Source: Candidatus Sumerlaeota bacterium
GTDB taxonomy: Bacteria; Sumerlaeota; Sumerlaeia; JAFGJS01
Direction: 5' to 3'
Length of the DNA: 31,694 bases
Assembly: GCA_016928995.1 (NCBI GenBank)
Contig: JAFGJS010000135.1
Location: forward strand, 1-31,694
In this document: piece after piece, positions 3,488 to 23,132 of the stretch
How positions within the stretch are numbered: the stretch's first letter is position 1
Layout: each line of letters begins with the position of its first letter
Made by a program: the position numbers and the translations under genes
The notes under the pieces: model-generated
What the model was told of the DNA's origin: nothing
What the model saw: the letters and a program-made list of their open reading frames with translations, nothing else
Databases searched by the model: none

Positions 3488-4570
3488 ATGATGAAAAGGT
3501 TAATCGAACTCGTTGTGGTAGTCTCTTGCGTTTGTCTGCTGATGACTGAAATCGCGCAAGCCCAGACCGGAAGCAATATGACCGTCACCAACCGCAAAGC
3601 CGGCAAGGTGCTGGACGCTTTCGGCTCCACAGCCGGCTCCAACGTCGGCATTTACACCGATTATGGCAATTCCAATCAGCGCTGGACCATCGCCGCGAAC
3701 GGCAGCGGCTACACCTTCCGTGAGCAGAAAGCGAACTTGGCGATGGACACCTGGAACTGGGGCACGGCTAATGGCACCAACATCGCCGTCTATACGTATT
3801 GGGGCGGCTCTCCGCAGACCTATCTGCTGACGGCTGTCGGCGATTATTATCGCATCACGCCATCGATCTCCACCGGCCAGTGCGTGGACGCCTACGGCAC
3901 GAGCAGCGGCTCGAACGTCGGCACGTGGTCCTACTGGGGCGGCACGAACCAGCAGTGGTCCATTGAAGCCCCTTACGAGGGCAGCACGGACTGTGGCAGC
4001 GGCTGGAGCATCGGCTATCCATGGGGCCGTACGCACAACGGCACGGTCTACATGGCCTGGTGCGGCGACACGATGGTCGCGGTTCAGCCCGGCGCCAACG
4101 GCTACAAGTATAATTCCGGCGCTTCCTATAGCACTACGAAGCTCTACATGTGGTCCGGCGACTCCTCCGCGGGCGCCCAGGCTTACTGCAGCGCTCCGAC
4201 GGCCACCGGCACCTGGCCGGCCTTCTGGATTACGACGGAAGGCGCCTGGACCGGCGAGGTGGACATCGCCGAATGGAAAGGCAGCGGCACGGTGTGGCAG
4301 AACACCTATGACGGCAGCTGGGAAACCAAAACGACAAGTTCAAATAACACGTATTATAAAGTTCACATGCAGCTGAAGAGCACGGCGGACGGCGAGACCG
4401 ACGCGTGGGTTTGGCTGTACATCAACGGTTCCTGGACCGCGACCCATACGGGCAGCGATTTTCGGAACAAAAACTTCTGGCTGATCCGGAACCTTCAGAT
4501 GGAAGGCTCCTCCGGTTCGCCGGGGCCAACCAGCGCCTCTTATACCTGCCGCAGCATCTCGCAGTGGTAG
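3488..4570 (+). CDS. Secreted RICIN (CBM13) + GH16-type glycoside hydrolase, copy 1
   Basis: The 360-residue product has a signal peptide (about 1-25, ending EIAQAQ). Next comes a ricin-type beta-trefoil carbohydrate-binding domain (about 28-160) with three QxW-like repeats (QRW 64-66, QTY 110-112, QQW 155-157). The C-terminal domain (about 165-360) resembles the GH16 jelly-roll. GTWPAFWITTEG is followed by GEVDIAEWKG, and the signature ExDxxE gives E257 as likely nucleophile, D259, and E262 as acid/base. GH16 enzymes cut beta-1,3/1,4-glucans and galactans; the substrate here is unknown. The domain is short for GH16. The start could be the second ATG (3491), which aligns with the paralogue at 5580. 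A terminator follows. Confidence 0.85.
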   Translation: MMKRLIELVVVVSCVCLLMTEIAQAQTGSNMTVTNRKAGKVLDAFGSTAGSNVGIYTDYGNSNQRWTIAANGSGYTFREQKANLAMDTWNWGTANGTNIAVYTYWGGSPQTYLLTAVGDYYRITPSISTGQCVDAYGTSSGSNVGTWSYWGGTNQQWSIEAPYEGSTDCGSGWSIGYPWGRTHNGTVYMAWCGDTMVAVQPGANGYKYNSGASYSTTKLYMWSGDSSAGAQAYCSAPTATGTWPAFWITTEGAWTGEVDIAEWKGSGTVWQNTYDGSWETKTTSSNNTYYKVHMQLKSTADGETDAWVWLYINGSWTATHTGSDFRNKNFWLIRNLQMEGSSGSPGPTSASYTCRSISQW

Positions 4571-5366: not shown

Positions 5367-5579
5367 CAAGGATGTTTCCTATGTCATGACTTTGATCGTC
5401 AGCGTAAGATGTGATTGTGTGCCAATAAGCGAAGATGGGAATGCGATCATTCAAACGGACTTGATGGATCAAGATGAATGCGTTTCCAACCCATCCGCCG
5501 ATAGGCGGAAGGGATTCGCGAGAGTCGATGAGGTAAGATGGCGCTAGCCGCCTACTCAATTTATGGGGAGAAGAAGATT

Positions 5580-6665
5580 ATGAAAAAGCTAGTAGCACTT
5601 GCTGTAGTAGTCTCTTTTGTGTGTCTTGCTCTGAGTGAAATCGCGCAAGCCCAAACCGGAAGCAACATGATCGTCACCAACCGCAAAGCCAACAAGGTGC
5701 TGGACGCTTTCGGCTCCACGGCCGGCTCCAACGTCGGCATCTACACCGACTATGGCAGTTCCAATCAACGTTGGGCTATCGCTGCCAATGGCAGTGGTTA
5801 CACTCTCCGTGAGAAAAAAGCCAATCTGGCGATGGACACTTGGAACTGGGGCACGGGCAATGGAACCAACATCGCCGTGTATACCTACTATGGCAACGGC
5901 GCCCAGACCTTCTTGATTCAAGACGTGGGCAGCGGTTATTATCGCATCACACCGTCGATCTCCACCGGCCAGTGCATCGATGCTTACGGCACGAGCAGCG
6001 GCTCGAACGTTGGCACGTGGTCCTACTGGGGCGGCACCAACCAGCAATGGAAGATCGCGAGCGGCAGCTATGAAGGCAGCACCGATTGCGGCACGGGCTG
6101 GAACATTGGCTATCCATGGGGCCGCACACACAACGGCACCGTCTACATGGCCTGGTGCGGCGACACGATGGTCGCGGTTCAACCGGGCGCCAACGGCTAC
6201 AAATACAACTCCGGCGCCTCCTATAGCACCACGAAACTTTACATGTGGTCCGGCGACGCCTCCGCGGGCGCCGAGGCATACTGCAGCGCTCCGACGGCCA
6301 CCGGCACCTGGCCGGCTTTCTGGATCACGACCGAAGGCGCGTGGACCGGCGAAGTGGACATGGCTGAATGGAAGGGCAGCGGCACGGTTTGGCAGAACAC
6401 CTACGATGGCAGCTGGGAAAACAAACTCACAAGCTCGAACAATACGTACTATAAGGTCAGCATGGCGCTGAAAAGCACCGCGGACGGTTCGAATGACGCG
6501 TGGGTTTGGCTGTATATCAACGGCTCGTGGACCGCGACCCATACGGGCAGCAGTTTCAGGAACAAAAACTTCTGGTTGATCCGCAACCTGCAGATGGAAG
6601 GCGATTCCGGTTCTCCGGGACCGACCAGCGCCTCCTTCACTTGCCGCAGCATCAGCCAGTGGTAA
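5580..6665 (+). CDS. Secreted RICIN (CBM13) + GH16-type glycoside hydrolase, copy 2
   Basis: Paralogue of the gene at 3488 with the same layout: signal peptide (MKKLVALAVVVSFVCLALSE), beta-trefoil with QRW, QTF and QQW repeats, then the GH16-like domain with GTWPAFWITTEG and GEVDMAEWKG (ExDxxE kept). Amino-acid identity is high and strongest in the GH16 domain. Many synonymous codon differences show that the duplication is not recent and that the protein has been under purifying selection. ATG at 5580 is chosen, with GGGGAGAAGAAG just upstream exactly as in copy 1; the in-frame upstream ATG at 5538 lacks this. It probably acts outside the cell on the same class of polysaccharide as copy 1, or on a related one. 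Confidence 0.85.
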   Translation: MKKLVALAVVVSFVCLALSEIAQAQTGSNMIVTNRKANKVLDAFGSTAGSNVGIYTDYGSSNQRWAIAANGSGYTLREKKANLAMDTWNWGTGNGTNIAVYTYYGNGAQTFLIQDVGSGYYRITPSISTGQCIDAYGTSSGSNVGTWSYWGGTNQQWKIASGSYEGSTDCGTGWNIGYPWGRTHNGTVYMAWCGDTMVAVQPGANGYKYNSGASYSTTKLYMWSGDASAGAEAYCSAPTATGTWPAFWITTEGAWTGEVDMAEWKGSGTVWQNTYDGSWENKLTSSNNTYYKVSMALKSTADGSNDAWVWLYINGSWTATHTGSSFRNKNFWLIRNLQMEGDSGSPGPTSASFTCRSISQW

Positions 6666-11279: not shown

Positions 11280-13565
11280 TCAGCGTGGTTTTTGGCGGGC
11301 GCGGATGTAGTTGAGCAAGCCGCCAGCCAAAATGATTTCAACTTGCCGGTGAGTCAAGTTGTGCGACACGTGATAATCGCGATGCTTGGTGCGGTTCTGC
11401 AGCACCAGCGGCTTGTCGTTTTGCAGCATGTGCCGCACAAACGGCACTTCCAGCCGGTCGCCGGGATGGATCGATTCGGCCTGAGTGGGATCGGTGAAAG
11501 TCAGGGGCAGAATGCCGAAGTTGATCAGGCTGATGCCGTGTGTGCGTGAGAAGGATTTGGCCAGTACGGCGCGGATTTTGAGATACATCATCGCCATCGC
11601 GGCGTATTCGCCGCTGGCGCCCTGCCCGTAATTTTCTCCGGCCAGAATGAAGCCGCCGCCTGCTTCGCGCGCGTGCTGGATGAAATGGGGGTCCAGCGAG
11701 TGGAACAGATATCGCGCCAGCGCCGGTATGTTGCTGCGCTGCAGTTGATTGTCGGCGTTTTGCGCCAGGATTTGATCCACGGAGAAAAAATCGCCGGTTT
11801 GCACCAGCACTTCGCCCTTCAAGTCATCCGGCAGCACATCGTTCGTGGGGACGGGACGGATGTTCGGTCCTCGTATAATCTGTACTGTTGCGCCCTTCGC
11901 CGGCGGAACGACTATCAGGGCATTGGAAGGTTTTGCGGTTTTGGGGTGTTTCGCCGGAGCAGTCGAGGAGATTGCTTTCGCGCTGGTCAACGCTCCCCGG
12001 ATCGCGCTTTGCGCGGCGGTTTCCACGCTGCAGATGCACATCCGGATGCCCCTGGCGCCATTAAGTTCCTGCAGGTTGCGATGCGTTGTGCGCAGCGAGA
12101 ATTGTTCGCAGCCCGGTACTTGTCCAATGCCGACGCTGATGCCGTTGCCAGGCTCCAGGATCCGCGCACCTGCATCGAGCAGATATTTCAATTCGCCGGT
12201 TTCCTGCAAGGCGGTCAGCGCCGTGAGCGACGCTGGAGCGATCACAAGGCTGACGTCGGGATGCGCCGTGCGGCCTTTTAGAATGCGCGCGGCGATGGAT
12301 AGGTCGTGGTAGCCGCCGTTGACGGCGCCGCCGATGACGACCTGATGCACGGGACTGGCGGGCAGTTTCCGCACTGGACAGGCGGGCTCGGCGCCGCCGG
12401 CTTGCGCCGCCATCGGCTCCAACTGGTGCAGGCTGATTTCCATTTTTTCGTCGTAATGGCATTGTTTATCCGGCGCGAGCGCCTTCCAGTCTCGCCCTCG
12501 GCCATGCGCGGCGAGATAGGCCTTGGTCTGCTGATCGCTGGGGAATATCGCGCTCACCGCGCCCAGTTCGGCGGTCATGCCGGCGATGGCGGCCCGCTCT
12601 TCAACGTTCAACGACCGGACTCCTTCGCCGGTGAACTCGAAAATCTTGCCGGCGCCGCCGTTGCTGCCGAGCCGGCGCAGCAATTCCAGCGCCAGGTCTT
12701 TGGCTGATACCCATTTGCGCATCTTGCCCTTGAGAATGACATTGCAGACGCTTGGCATCAGCAGGTGATAGGGCCGTCCGCACATCGCCAGGGCCACATC
12801 CAGTCCGCCGCAGCTGAAGGCCAGCATGCCCAGCGCGCCGGCCATTGAGGCCAGCGGATCCGTTCCCAACAGCGTCCGTCCGGCCTTGCCGAAGCGCTGC
12901 ATATGGACATGATGACAATTGCCGTTTCCCGCTTTTGAAAACTGCACGCCATACCGGGCCGCCACGGTTTGCAGGTAGATCTGGTCGTCCGTGCTTTCGT
13001 GTCCGGTCTGCAACGTGTTGATGTCCACATAACTTGCGGAGATTTCCGTTTGCACGCGTGAGAGCCCCATGGCCTCGAATTGCAAATAGGCCATCGGCCC
13101 CATGGCGTCCTGAGTCAATGTCTGATCGATCTTGATGCCGATCTCCACGCCTGGCATCAATTCGCCATGCCGTATGTGATCACGCATGATTTTTTCGGCA
13201 AGGTTGCATCGCGCGGGCGCTTTCGCTTTTACGCTGCGTCTGGAAGATATTTGTTTGACGGATGTTTTTTTCTGCTTCGCTGCTGTTTTAGGCGTTGATG
13301 GTTTTTTCGATTTCACGGGCTTTTTTAATTTCGACGGCGTTTGTGTTTTAGCTTTGGATTTTATTGGCGTTTTGGTTTTTGGCGGAGTTTTGGCTTTTGT
13401 ACGCGCTGTTTTTTTTGCCGCTGTTTTGGATTTTACGGAGACGCTCTTGTGTTTGGCCTTTTGCGGTTTCGCTTTTGCTCGCAAGGATTTCGATGCGACA
13501 GCTTTGGTTTTTGACGCCGCTTTTTTCGCCGGCCGCTTCTTCGTGGTTTTTTTGGACACAGCCAT
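11280..13565 (-). CDS. Aconitase-like pseudoenzyme with a lysine-rich histone-like tail
   Basis: The 761-residue product aligns by eye from about 122 onward with the Aquifex-type aconitase family: GNCHHVH, FEFTGEGVRSLNVEERA, HPDVSLVIAP, GENYGQG and FGILPLTF are recognisable. The active site is broken. The expected DSHT reads DPLA (236-239). The cluster ligand motif GSCTNS reads GGAVNG (412-417). The ACGPC pair reads PGNGIS (472-477). GSSREH reads GASGEY (649-654). All three [4Fe-4S] ligands are therefore absent, so dehydratase activity is unlikely. Residues 1-119 hold 38 Lys and 6 Arg with no acidic residue, like bacterial histone-H1-type tails, suggesting nucleic-acid binding. AAGGA precedes the ATG. 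There is no frameshift across the fusion. Confidence 0.85.
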   Translation of the reverse strand: MAVSKKTTKKRPAKKAASKTKAVASKSLRAKAKPQKAKHKSVSVKSKTAAKKTARTKAKTPPKTKTPIKSKAKTQTPSKLKKPVKSKKPSTPKTAAKQKKTSVKQISSRRSVKAKAPARCNLAEKIMRDHIRHGELMPGVEIGIKIDQTLTQDAMGPMAYLQFEAMGLSRVQTEISASYVDINTLQTGHESTDDQIYLQTVAARYGVQFSKAGNGNCHHVHMQRFGKAGRTLLGTDPLASMAGALGMLAFSCGGLDVALAMCGRPYHLLMPSVCNVILKGKMRKWVSAKDLALELLRRLGSNGGAGKIFEFTGEGVRSLNVEERAAIAGMTAELGAVSAIFPSDQQTKAYLAAHGRGRDWKALAPDKQCHYDEKMEISLHQLEPMAAQAGGAEPACPVRKLPASPVHQVVIGGAVNGGYHDLSIAARILKGRTAHPDVSLVIAPASLTALTALQETGELKYLLDAGARILEPGNGISVGIGQVPGCEQFSLRTTHRNLQELNGARGIRMCICSVETAAQSAIRGALTSAKAISSTAPAKHPKTAKPSNALIVVPPAKGATVQIIRGPNIRPVPTNDVLPDDLKGEVLVQTGDFFSVDQILAQNADNQLQRSNIPALARYLFHSLDPHFIQHAREAGGGFILAGENYGQGASGEYAAMAMMYLKIRAVLAKSFSRTHGISLINFGILPLTFTDPTQAESIHPGDRLEVPFVRHMLQNDKPLVLQNRTKHRDYHVSHNLTHRQVEIILAGGLLNYIRARQKPR

Positions 13566-13690
13566 TATACATCCTTGCGGTGGAATAGTTTAAAGATATG
13601 CCTCTGAATACTACGAAGGTTAAGCAGAAGAGTGCGCGTTTGGCAATAAGAAACTGATTGTTTTGTGCGATTTTCAATAATTGTTCGCTG

Positions 13691-19179: not shown

Positions 19180-21147
19180 ATGAAAGCACCGTCCGATCTT
19201 TCCGCCGCCGCATCACAGCAGGCCGTGCAACGCAATGTGCGAGTTTTTGGGGTGGATTATCTGCATTTGGATCTGCCTGAAGGGGATCTCTATCTTACGG
19301 AATTCGGCCAGCCGTTTATGCATTGGCTGATGCCGGACCAGTGGAATGATCTCGCTTATTATCAAAAGCCGGATAACCGCGAAAATCGCGTCCGTCTGGA
19401 AGGATCGGCCAATCCGTTCAAGATCCGCACCAAGCCCGTGGATGGCAAGGCCATCGACATTGTGGTGAAATGGTGCCGGGTGGGGAGCCAGGTGCAGATT
19501 TATCAATCGCATCGCGCGGACCATCTGCCCGAGGCGGATTTGTCATCCATCCGCTGGAACAGTCCGTTTGAGGAATTCGGCCTACTGAAGGAGCTGCGCG
19601 ACAGCAACCATTACTATCAGCCGCGGATCTTGACTCAACGGCCGTTCGCGATTTATTCGCCCAAGGATACGTTCCCGTTGTGGCAGCTGGGCCGGGAGCA
19701 CTCGTCCTGGAAGCATCATCAGCGCAAACTGGCGCAGGATCAATACGGCCTTTGCGCCGAGGAGGCGATCGAGTTCGACATCCAGCGGGTTTACGCCGTG
19801 ATCTACGGCTGGGTGAAAGGCGAGGATGCCGCGAAGCTTTTTCCGAAGTTGGAACTTTCGGCCGAGGAGTTAGAGGAGTTTACAGAGCACGTCTATTACC
19901 AACTGTTGCTGCAACGCGGCTACGAAGTGGCGGACACCAAACCGGCGCATTTCATCCTGCGGCAGAACGGCAAGGACGTGCTGCGCGACGAGCATGGCCG
20001 TCCGCAATTCGCGCTGATCGATTTTGAGCTGCTTTCCCGGACGCCGGATTATGAAAACAAGTTCCGTAGCGCGCAGCGGCACAAATATTTCCGCATCCAA
20101 AGCATCAAGGACGTCAAGGTCAAGAGTCTGCCGCCGCTTTGCGAGTATCAGAATGTTTTCGGCGTGGACTACACCTTTACGCACGCGGCGAACAACGGAC
20201 GACTATGGATCGTGGGCAGCCAGCCCGATCTGGTGGATTTCTTCGAGCCGTCGCGCTGGAGGAGCCAGCCGCGCGTACAGCTCTCCAGCATCTGCTTTCG
20301 CACCTGCAGCCAGGACAATGTTCAGATCATCTACCGGATTTCGCGTTGCGGCATTTTTCCGGATGTGAATCTCAATCGCGCGGAGGGCCGGCGCATCCGC
20401 CAATTCGGCTATAACAGCCCCTTCGAGGTCGTGGCGCTCGCCGAGCAGCTGCGCGCGCTGGGCATTCCGACGATTTATCCGCGGGCGATTTACCGCACGT
20501 CGCATGAATCGCTGCCGGCGGAATGGCTGCTGGATGAATCGCGCTACGAGAGCCATAAGAATCTGCGCGCGCCGGACGGGGAGCCGCTGCTCAGCCACGT
20601 GCATGATTACTTCACGCTTTGGGGGCATTGGCGCGGACATGATCCGCTGCAGGGCTACCGGCACGCCGGTCATTGGGGTTTGATCGACCTGGAGCAGGCC
20701 GTGGAGAAACATGTGATCAGCGAGGATGAGTATCAGCGTTTCTGGCAGAACATGCGGCCGGAACTCAAAACCATCATCGACAAGGGGCGCATCCGCAACG
20801 ACCGGATCTCCCTGCACTTTGAGGATGGTCACCTGGCTCGCGACAAAGACGGGCGGCTACAAGTCACCATCACCGTGAATGGGACCTACGCTTTACTTTA
20901 TGGCTTGATTTCCAAGAAGAAATACAATGCGCTGCTTCGGTCGATCCACAACAGGCTTGCGATACATGGTTACGAGGCGCTGAATCTGAAGGGGGATCAT
21001 CTGATCATGCCTACGGATAATCGTGCGCGGCTGCGTCCCGATCCGGCCAATCCCGATTTGCCCCACGCCGCGCTGTGCAATTTCTCCCTGATCCGCGCGC
21101 CCTGGATGCATTACAACGTAGCGCATCCGCGCAAGGCGGGGGAATAG
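19180..21147 (+). CDS. Protein with two tandem kinase-like domains, second degenerate
   Basis: The 655-residue product is soluble, with no signal or membrane segment. Two halves share a plan. Half 1 (about 20-310): IDIVVKWCR (K97, as in the kinase beta-3 Lys), WNSPFEEFGLLKEL (126-139, alphaC-like), VYAVIYGWVKGEDAAKLF, then ADTKPAHFILRQ (251-262) and ALIDFELLSR (278-287), reminiscent of the catalytic and DFG-type motifs of APH/Kdo-type kinases. Half 2 (about 323-640): VQIIYRISR (Lys position holds Tyr-Arg), YNSPFEVVALAEQL, TYALLYGLISKKKYNALL, KGDHLIMPTD and LCNFSLIR, without metal-binding Asp. I infer an active half and a pseudo-half; the substrate is unknown. The kinase call rests on motifs only. 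Confidence 0.65.
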   Translation: MKAPSDLSAAASQQAVQRNVRVFGVDYLHLDLPEGDLYLTEFGQPFMHWLMPDQWNDLAYYQKPDNRENRVRLEGSANPFKIRTKPVDGKAIDIVVKWCRVGSQVQIYQSHRADHLPEADLSSIRWNSPFEEFGLLKELRDSNHYYQPRILTQRPFAIYSPKDTFPLWQLGREHSSWKHHQRKLAQDQYGLCAEEAIEFDIQRVYAVIYGWVKGEDAAKLFPKLELSAEELEEFTEHVYYQLLLQRGYEVADTKPAHFILRQNGKDVLRDEHGRPQFALIDFELLSRTPDYENKFRSAQRHKYFRIQSIKDVKVKSLPPLCEYQNVFGVDYTFTHAANNGRLWIVGSQPDLVDFFEPSRWRSQPRVQLSSICFRTCSQDNVQIIYRISRCGIFPDVNLNRAEGRRIRQFGYNSPFEVVALAEQLRALGIPTIYPRAIYRTSHESLPAEWLLDESRYESHKNLRAPDGEPLLSHVHDYFTLWGHWRGHDPLQGYRHAGHWGLIDLEQAVEKHVISEDEYQRFWQNMRPELKTIIDKGRIRNDRISLHFEDGHLARDKDGRLQVTITVNGTYALLYGLISKKKYNALLRSIHNRLAIHGYEALNLKGDHLIMPTDNRARLRPDPANPDLPHAALCNFSLIRAPWMHYNVAHPRKAGE

Positions 21148-22157: not shown

Positions 22158-23132
22158 TTATCGAGTTTTGGATGAAGATTGGTTCTGCTGCTGGGCGAGG
22201 GTGTTGCGTTCCCAGAAGACGCCGCCGGTGTAGCCCTGAATTGTGGGATCGGTTTCGACGAGTTCAAGACGGCGTTCGGCGAGCAGACAGTATTCCTCAT
22301 TCTGCTCGATGCCGATGTAGCGGCGGCCGAGTTTTTTGGCTACGACGGACGCGGCGCCGGAGCCGAGGAAGGGATCAAGCACGAGATCGTCCGGATGGGA
22401 ACTGGCGAGGATGACCTTGGCCAGCAATTTTTCCGGCTTTTGCGTGGGATGATCGGTGTTTTCCGGCATGGACCAGAACGGAACGCTGAGGTCAGTCCAG
22501 AGATTGGAGGGATGCGTCAGGCGGAAGTTGCCATCATCGCCGGCGTTCCAATCCTTGGGCTGGCCGTCATCGTGTTTGTACGGCGCGATGACGCGGCGTT
22601 TGAGTTTCACGGCGTCCACGTTGAAGCAGTAATCGTTCGAGGCCGTGCAAAACCAGACGTCTTCATGGCTGTTTTTCCAGTTGGCCTTGGCGCCGCGGCC
22701 TTTTTCGCGTTCCCAGGTGATGCGGTTGCGCACCTTGAAGAATTTCGACGCGGCGTGGTAGATCGCAGGGGAGGAGCGCCAGTCGCCGCAGATATAAATC
22801 GACGCGCCGGGTTTCATGATGCGCTGAAGCAACGCCAGCCAGGATTCGAGCCACTCCTGGTATTGCTGGAGTTCATCCGGGTTGAAATTGACGCTGTTGA
22901 AGGGCTGCTTGAGATTGTACGGCGGATCGGCGAAGACCAAGTCGGCGCAGGCATCCGGCAGGAGTGGGAGAGCCTTGAACACATCCTGATGGATGGTGGT
23001 ATTCACAATCGCATCGAGTTTCGCGGGAGCATCCAATGTTTGCAGACGCGGTTTCAATCGCCGCCGGTCGTCATCCGAGAGGGTGAGTGTGCGGTTGCGC
23101 GGGGCGCGCTTGGATTGGGGTGTGTTTGTCAT
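22158..23132 (-). CDS. Site-specific DNA methyltransferase (N6-adenine/N4-cytosine type)
   Basis: The 324-residue product carries catalytic motif IV DPPYNL (69-74) ahead of the SAM-binding motif DPFLGSG (253-259), the order of beta-class methyltransferases. HPTQKP (228-233) precedes the latter as usual. DPPY favours N6-adenine over N4-cytosine. The basic N-terminus (8-30) may contact DNA. No restriction endonuclease gene is adjacent, so it is an orphan methylase on this evidence. Its ATG overlaps the folB stop (TAATG), implying translational coupling. The recognition sequence cannot be read from the protein. Confidence 0.92.
   Translation of the reverse strand: MTNTPQSKRAPRNRTLTLSDDDRRRLKPRLQTLDAPAKLDAIVNTTIHQDVFKALPLLPDACADLVFADPPYNLKQPFNSVNFNPDELQQYQEWLESWLALLQRIMKPGASIYICGDWRSSPAIYHAASKFFKVRNRITWEREKGRGAKANWKNSHEDVWFCTASNDYCFNVDAVKLKRRVIAPYKHDDGQPKDWNAGDDGNFRLTHPSNLWTDLSVPFWSMPENTDHPTQKPEKLLAKVILASSHPDDLVLDPFLGSGAASVVAKKLGRRYIGIEQNEEYCLLAERRLELVETDPTIQGYTGGVFWERNTLAQQQNQSSSKTR

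Follow-up and report, generated by a model that had tools for sequence, protein, structure and literature searches.

The 31,694-nucleotide stretch of Sumerlaeota DNA analysed here (the window) carries a gene whose product, judged from its residues, is very probably a pseudoenzyme: the aconitase fold appears to have been kept and the catalytic residues lost, with the gene under continuing selection. The gene is a minus-strand open reading frame (13565..11280) of 761 uninterrupted codons, with an ATG at 13565 and a stop codon at 11280-11282; the first-pass annotation of this DNA had described a frame open for 761 codons, and this is what the minus strand contains. As read from the ORF, Pfam and NF005558, the whole coding sequence (11280..13565, minus strand, 761 aa) specifies a lysine-rich tail followed by the putative aconitase-fold pseudoenzyme. 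A Shine-Dalgarno-like AAGGA is found in the upstream sequence 6 nt before the ATG (13572..13576, minus strand) and no methionine occurs between residues 1 and 127, which together favour a start that includes the tail. The ORF is real and complete and belongs to its Sumerlaeota MAG (G000; 4.55 Mb, 161 contigs, 92% complete): the tetranucleotide profile of the window correlates with that of its own genome at r = 0.992, compared with 0.67-0.87 for other Sumerlaeota genomes.

The window gene is the sole full PRK07229 homologue within G000 and is flanked by glmS and a bifunctional-nuclease-domain gene. Except for the gene itself, no gene neighbourhood common to the window and its relatives was found. 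In genome G003 an intact PRK07229 aconitase adjoins an isocitrate/isopropylmalate-dehydrogenase-like gene (L040:6618-7676), unlike the neighbours in the window.

Three other loci of the window were noted. Two closely similar plus-strand genes (3488-4570 and 5538-6665) presumably encode secreted ricin-B-lectin-domain proteins. A 655-aa ORF without a Pfam match (19180-21147, plus strand) apparently contains two copies of a module beginning with FGVDY. On the minus strand, an N6/N4 DNA methyltransferase gene (22158-23132) adjoins a FolB-like gene, with no restriction partner noted.

Fold and active site of the core

Residues 120-761 (11283..13208, minus strand) make up the aconitase-fold core, which contains PF00330 and PF00694. 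Residues 120-758 match NF005558, the model for PRK07229-type single-chain aconitases, above its cut-off (678 bits; cut-off 612), in agreement with the earlier assignment of the C-terminal part as an aconitase homologue. The core aligns end to end with the Aquifex-type single-chain aconitases (PRK07229/TIGR01342) and is 43-52% identical to its closest relatives; it differs from these enzymes in the loss of three cluster cysteines and most catalytic residues, in its 119-residue tail and in a TIGR01342 score below the cut-off (638 versus 719). As the NF005558 cut-off is passed, automatic annotation would label the protein an aconitate hydratase.

Structure prediction, a check put forward in the first-pass annotation, returned an aconitase fold for the core (AF2; pLDDT 88.9, pTM 0.90). 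Superposed on bovine mitochondrial aconitase, the model matches over 642-645 residues with Z 46-47 and rmsd 2.0-2.3 (Z ~47 over 644 residues for the whole core), and a control model of an intact relative (pLDDT 92.7) has the same topology. Based on these results, the aconitase fold of the core is predicted with confidence. A drop in model confidence at the cluster loops was considered as a mark of a pseudoenzyme and rejected, as the control model of the intact enzyme falls there too (to 71-82, against 62-78).

Residue positions were mapped through an alignment to bovine aconitase and a family alignment, and the protein was scored at 20 residues that we take, from general knowledge, to be the canonical aconitase active site. 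Eleven are replaced (H101I, S166P, H167L, N258G, C358A, C421N, C424S, N446H, R452L, S642A and R644G) and nine are kept (Q72, D100, H147, D165, E262, R447, D568 (here D597), R580 and S643). No substitution of the three cysteines, H101, S166, H167, R452, S642 or R644 is seen in any of 88 canonical family members.

According to the alignment, all of the changes lie along the minus strand as follows. Catalytic H101 is replaced by I182 (13020..13022), and N258 by G329 (12579..12581). DSHT has become DPLA (residues 236-239; 12849..12860), in which P237 and L238 stand for S166 and H167 and D165 is kept. Each of the three [4Fe-4S] ligands is lost: GSCTNS is GGAVNG (412-417; 12315..12332), with A414 for C358, and E-x-A-C-G-P-C is EPGNGIS (471-477; 12135..12155), with N474 for C421 and S477 for C424. 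NRNFxGR is HRNLQEL (495-501; 12063..12083), where N446 is a histidine, R452 is L501 and R447 is kept. Finally, GSSREH is GASGEY (649-654; 11604..11621), in which the catalytic base S642 is A650, R644 is G652 and S643 is kept.

The four motif changes of the first-pass annotation (DPLA, GGAVNG, NGIS and GASGEY) are thus as it stated them. Its broader claim, that every catalytic and cluster residue is replaced, applies to the three cluster cysteines and has to be narrowed for the active site, where only 11 of 20 residues have changed; the loss of a substrate arginine is also correct, except that two are gone, R452 and R644. It can safely be inferred from these residues that the cluster and the aconitase chemistry have been lost, and the protein is expected to have neither a cluster nor activity.

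Relatives of the window protein

Cluster-free members were sought in 40 Sumerlaeota genomes and among the best 80 of at least 593 pattern matches in other contigs, a search that the first-pass annotation had also suggested. The same three cysteines are lacking in L041, from a genome (G005) of another Sumerlaeota family (C358S, C421Y and C424S), the motifs of which are GGSTNS and EPGYGPS, compared with GGAVNG and EPGNGIS in the window protein. L041 differs from the window protein in keeping the DSH motif and nearly all non-cluster active-site residues (H101, S166, H167, N258, S642 and R644) and in having only a basic leader of ~10 residues rather than a long tail. No member lacking all three cysteines was found among the best 80 of the at least 593 pattern matches.

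In a tree constructed without the motif columns, the window protein, L041 and the pair L038/L039 of family f10 are grouped at 83/82, with their internal order left open. A sister relationship between the window protein and L041 is not settled: it received 89/75 in a larger tree, yet the tree joining the window protein with L038/L039 scored better there, and in a smaller tree the two arrangements differ by no more than 0.4 lnL. S357G, C424S and a Pro-Gly before C421 are common to the window protein and L041 and favour one shared cluster loss, although they do not settle it. L041 is a possible intermediate that would suggest the order of loss.

A separate subfamily, found in Sumerlaeota and KSB1 (L037:3233-5185, L048:5600-7298 and L119:1083-3008), has a serine for C358 in GSSANPG, a GCNGC loop and an otherwise nearly intact set of residues, with L048 split between two frames. 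Its members possibly have a different cluster or substrate.

The lysine-rich tail and candidate functions

The N-terminal tail, residues 1-119 (13209..13565, minus strand), is composed of 38 K, 6 R, 19 A, 15 S, 14 T and 10 P, among others, with no D or E and a net charge of +44; its lysine, arginine and acidic residues had been counted correctly before. Only one of 722 ORFs in a 317-kb sample of G000 has such a polybasic stretch, this being the window ORF, and polybasic tails as a general habit of the genome were rejected on this count. Elsewhere in the family, the N-terminal extension is no longer than 12 residues in 75 of 80 members. L038 and L039, both catalytically intact, carry Lys/Ala tails of ~50-53 residues (15 basic, 0-1 acidic), and comparison of the two gives an omega of 0.19 for the tail, below neutral, and 0.022 for the core. 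Because these tails are found on fully catalytic enzymes, tail and cluster loss are separate matters: the tail either arose before the cluster was lost or has no connection with that loss, and is a feature of some Sumerlaeota aconitases that is longer in the window protein. The earlier view of the tail as part of the make-up of a cluster-free protein does not fit these intact enzymes, nor the cluster-free L041, which has no long tail.

Codon use differs between the two parts of the gene. In the tail (13209-13565) lysine is encoded by AAA 32 times and by AAG 6 times, compared with 16 AAA and 11 AAG codons for the core (p = 0.04); the GC3 values are 0.45 for the tail and 0.73 for the core. These differences hint at a different origin, or an expansion, of the tail.

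The tail had been called histone-H1-like, and this description is appropriate insofar as it is a Lys/Ala/Pro/Ser/Thr-rich, acid-free region of low complexity; it has no regular KPAA repeat. In the histone-H1-like proteins AlgP and PhaF, Lys/Ala/Pro tails have been reported to bind DNA and to organise granules (PMC9239181). The window protein resembles these in having a Lys/Ala/Pro-rich, presumably disordered region on an unrelated domain, but in AlgP and PhaF this region is C-terminal and built of tandem KPAA repeats, whereas in the window protein it is N-terminal, non-repetitive and attached to an aconitase fold, and no sequence homology has been shown. Given its composition, nucleic-acid or other polyanion binding by the tail is plausible.

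The window protein very probably has a different job from that of aconitase. The best explanation overall, held with moderate confidence, is that it is a pseudoenzyme docked by its tail on a polyanion. By electrostatic attraction, the 119-residue tail would tether the folded core to nucleoid DNA, to RNA or to polyphosphate, and by analogy such binding may well be its function.

A more specific proposal in the first-pass annotation, that the lost cluster and the tail work together as a single device for binding RNA, as suggested by IRP1, fares less well. The RNA-contacting cleft arginines of IRP1 are R536, R541, R699 and R780, of which R699 is presumably the equivalent of bovine R580. The window protein keeps two cleft arginines (R496 and R610) and has lost the equivalents of R541 and R780 (L501 and G652), which speaks against recognition of RNA by the cleft in the manner of IRP1; the catalytic orthologues with tails and L041 without a long one also count against a single device. 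IRP2 is a vertebrate member that has been kept for RNA binding. IRP1 and IRP2 share with the window protein an aconitase fold with a cluster-free state, but belong to another subfamily (Z 32 between the AF2 core and IRP1, versus 47 for mitochondrial aconitase), and the window protein differs from them in that its cluster cysteines are gone altogether, half of the four cleft arginines are missing and a basic tail is present instead. IRP1 itself is switched by cluster assembly (PMC7589414). It is conceivable, if rather doubtful, that the window protein and L041 represent a Sumerlaeota clade of cluster-free aconitases in which the cysteines were lost first and the catalytic residues later, and that the window member is now dedicated to regulation while bound to a polyanion, or to service as a nucleoid protein, a permanently switched bacterial counterpart of the reversible IRP1.

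The yeast mitochondrial aconitase Aco1p differs from the window protein in being an active enzyme with a cluster, and we know of no lysine-rich tail of the window kind in it. Aco1p acts in mtDNA maintenance, a second role on DNA (PMC11431987).

A close rival to tail docking, given the carboxylate-binding residues that remain, is that the pseudoenzyme works chiefly by sensing a ligand, by regulation or by partnering another protein, such as AcnA or some other enzyme, with a tail that is incidental and inherited from tailed active aconitases. This possibility, which we regard as tentative, is consistent with the retention of Q72, D100, H147, D165, E262, R447, R580 and S643, with the occurrence of tails on active enzymes and with the nearly complete non-cluster active site of L041; as half of the carboxylate-binding residues are kept, the core might bind an anionic metabolite. 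Against it, an acid-free tail of this length, seen once in the sampled ORFs, is unlikely to have been kept without use.

Less probable still is a repurposed, cluster-independent enzyme that uses the cleft for a different chemistry or metal site. Close to half of the active site is retained (D100, H147 and two arginines that bind carboxylates are among the residues kept), and the protein has ten cysteines elsewhere, among them C252, C262, C369, C396, C486 and C510, which are rare or absent at those family columns. However, the S642 base, S166/H167, H101, R452 and R644 are lost, and the non-ligand cysteines are scattered in sequence, with only C486 falling just after a cluster loop. Docking of the pseudoenzyme by its tail remains the reading that we prefer.

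A second aconitase and selection on the old copy

Contig C110 of G000 encodes an AcnA (1315 bits) in which every motif is present. Of 39 genomes of the class, 10 have PRK07229 without AcnA and 19 have AcnA with no PRK07229 match passing the chosen threshold; both are missing from nine, and both are present in one, G000 (Fisher p = 0.0012 for mutual exclusion, a value that overstates independence because the genomes are related). As G000 is the only genome with both, AcnA presumably took over catalysis. In genome G008, a degenerate PRK07229 copy (L047, 1486-3417) is found alongside an intact mitochondrial-type aconitase (L187). L047 has the motif DPRTP and the changes S166P, H167R, N258G, R452G, R580W, S642V, S643C and R644S but keeps all three cluster cysteines, and its degeneration is apparently independent of that of the window gene. 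The two genomes suggest that, where another aconitase is present, the old PRK07229 copy is relieved of its task. AcnA takeover does not cover L041, as the search of G005 (72% complete) turned up no aconitase besides L041.

Under the proposed course of events, the window gene would be descended from a single-chain PRK07229-type aconitase of the Sumerlaeota. The presence of AcnA, the presumed cause, would have freed this old copy from metabolic duty, and the freed copy would then have lost its [4Fe-4S] cluster and catalytic base, with fold and frame kept for another purpose.

The presence of AcnA would also make the window gene dispensable as an aconitase, and its end branch is very long (1.7-2.4 changes per site, where the median is about 0.5), as might be expected of a recently silenced gene in neutral decay. 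Such decay is nevertheless very unlikely for three reasons. First, of the residues at family columns with a conservation of 97% or more, the window protein keeps 110 of 142 (77%) outside the active site versus 8 of 18 (44%) inside it (p = 0.008), and neutral drift would treat both classes alike; retention also drops from 77 to 60, 45 and 24% as family conservation drops. Second, in a codon model with genomes of the same class as the closest relatives compared, omega = 1 on the window branch was rejected by 33 lnL units; the estimate for this branch (0.05, versus 0.03 elsewhere) is a rough figure, as synonymous sites are saturated. Third, neutral simulations that started from an intact relative and ended once 11 residues of the active site had changed produced a mean of 14.5 stop codons and a minimum of 2, with none of 300 stop-free, in contrast to the intact 761-codon frame. 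The first-pass annotation had concluded that this was not ordinary decay and had named dN/dS as a check; constraint outside the active site, codon model and simulations all bear the conclusion out, as does the confident prediction of the fold. Least probable of all, to the point of being negligible, is an assembly or binning artefact (a chimeric gene or contaminant contig): the host genome is fragmented, but the tetranucleotide profile of the window fits it, homology runs unbroken through the core and L041 has the same cysteine losses.

Pseudoenzymes (PMC7435893) and moonlighting aconitases (PMC11431987) are known, but the open literature yielded no example of a bacterial aconitase that has lost its cluster ligands. 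As far as that literature shows, the window protein would be an undescribed bacterial aconitase without iron-sulfur ligands, kept under selection and with a possible intermediate relative. It would provide a testable case of an enzyme released to a new role once a different isoenzyme takes its reaction.
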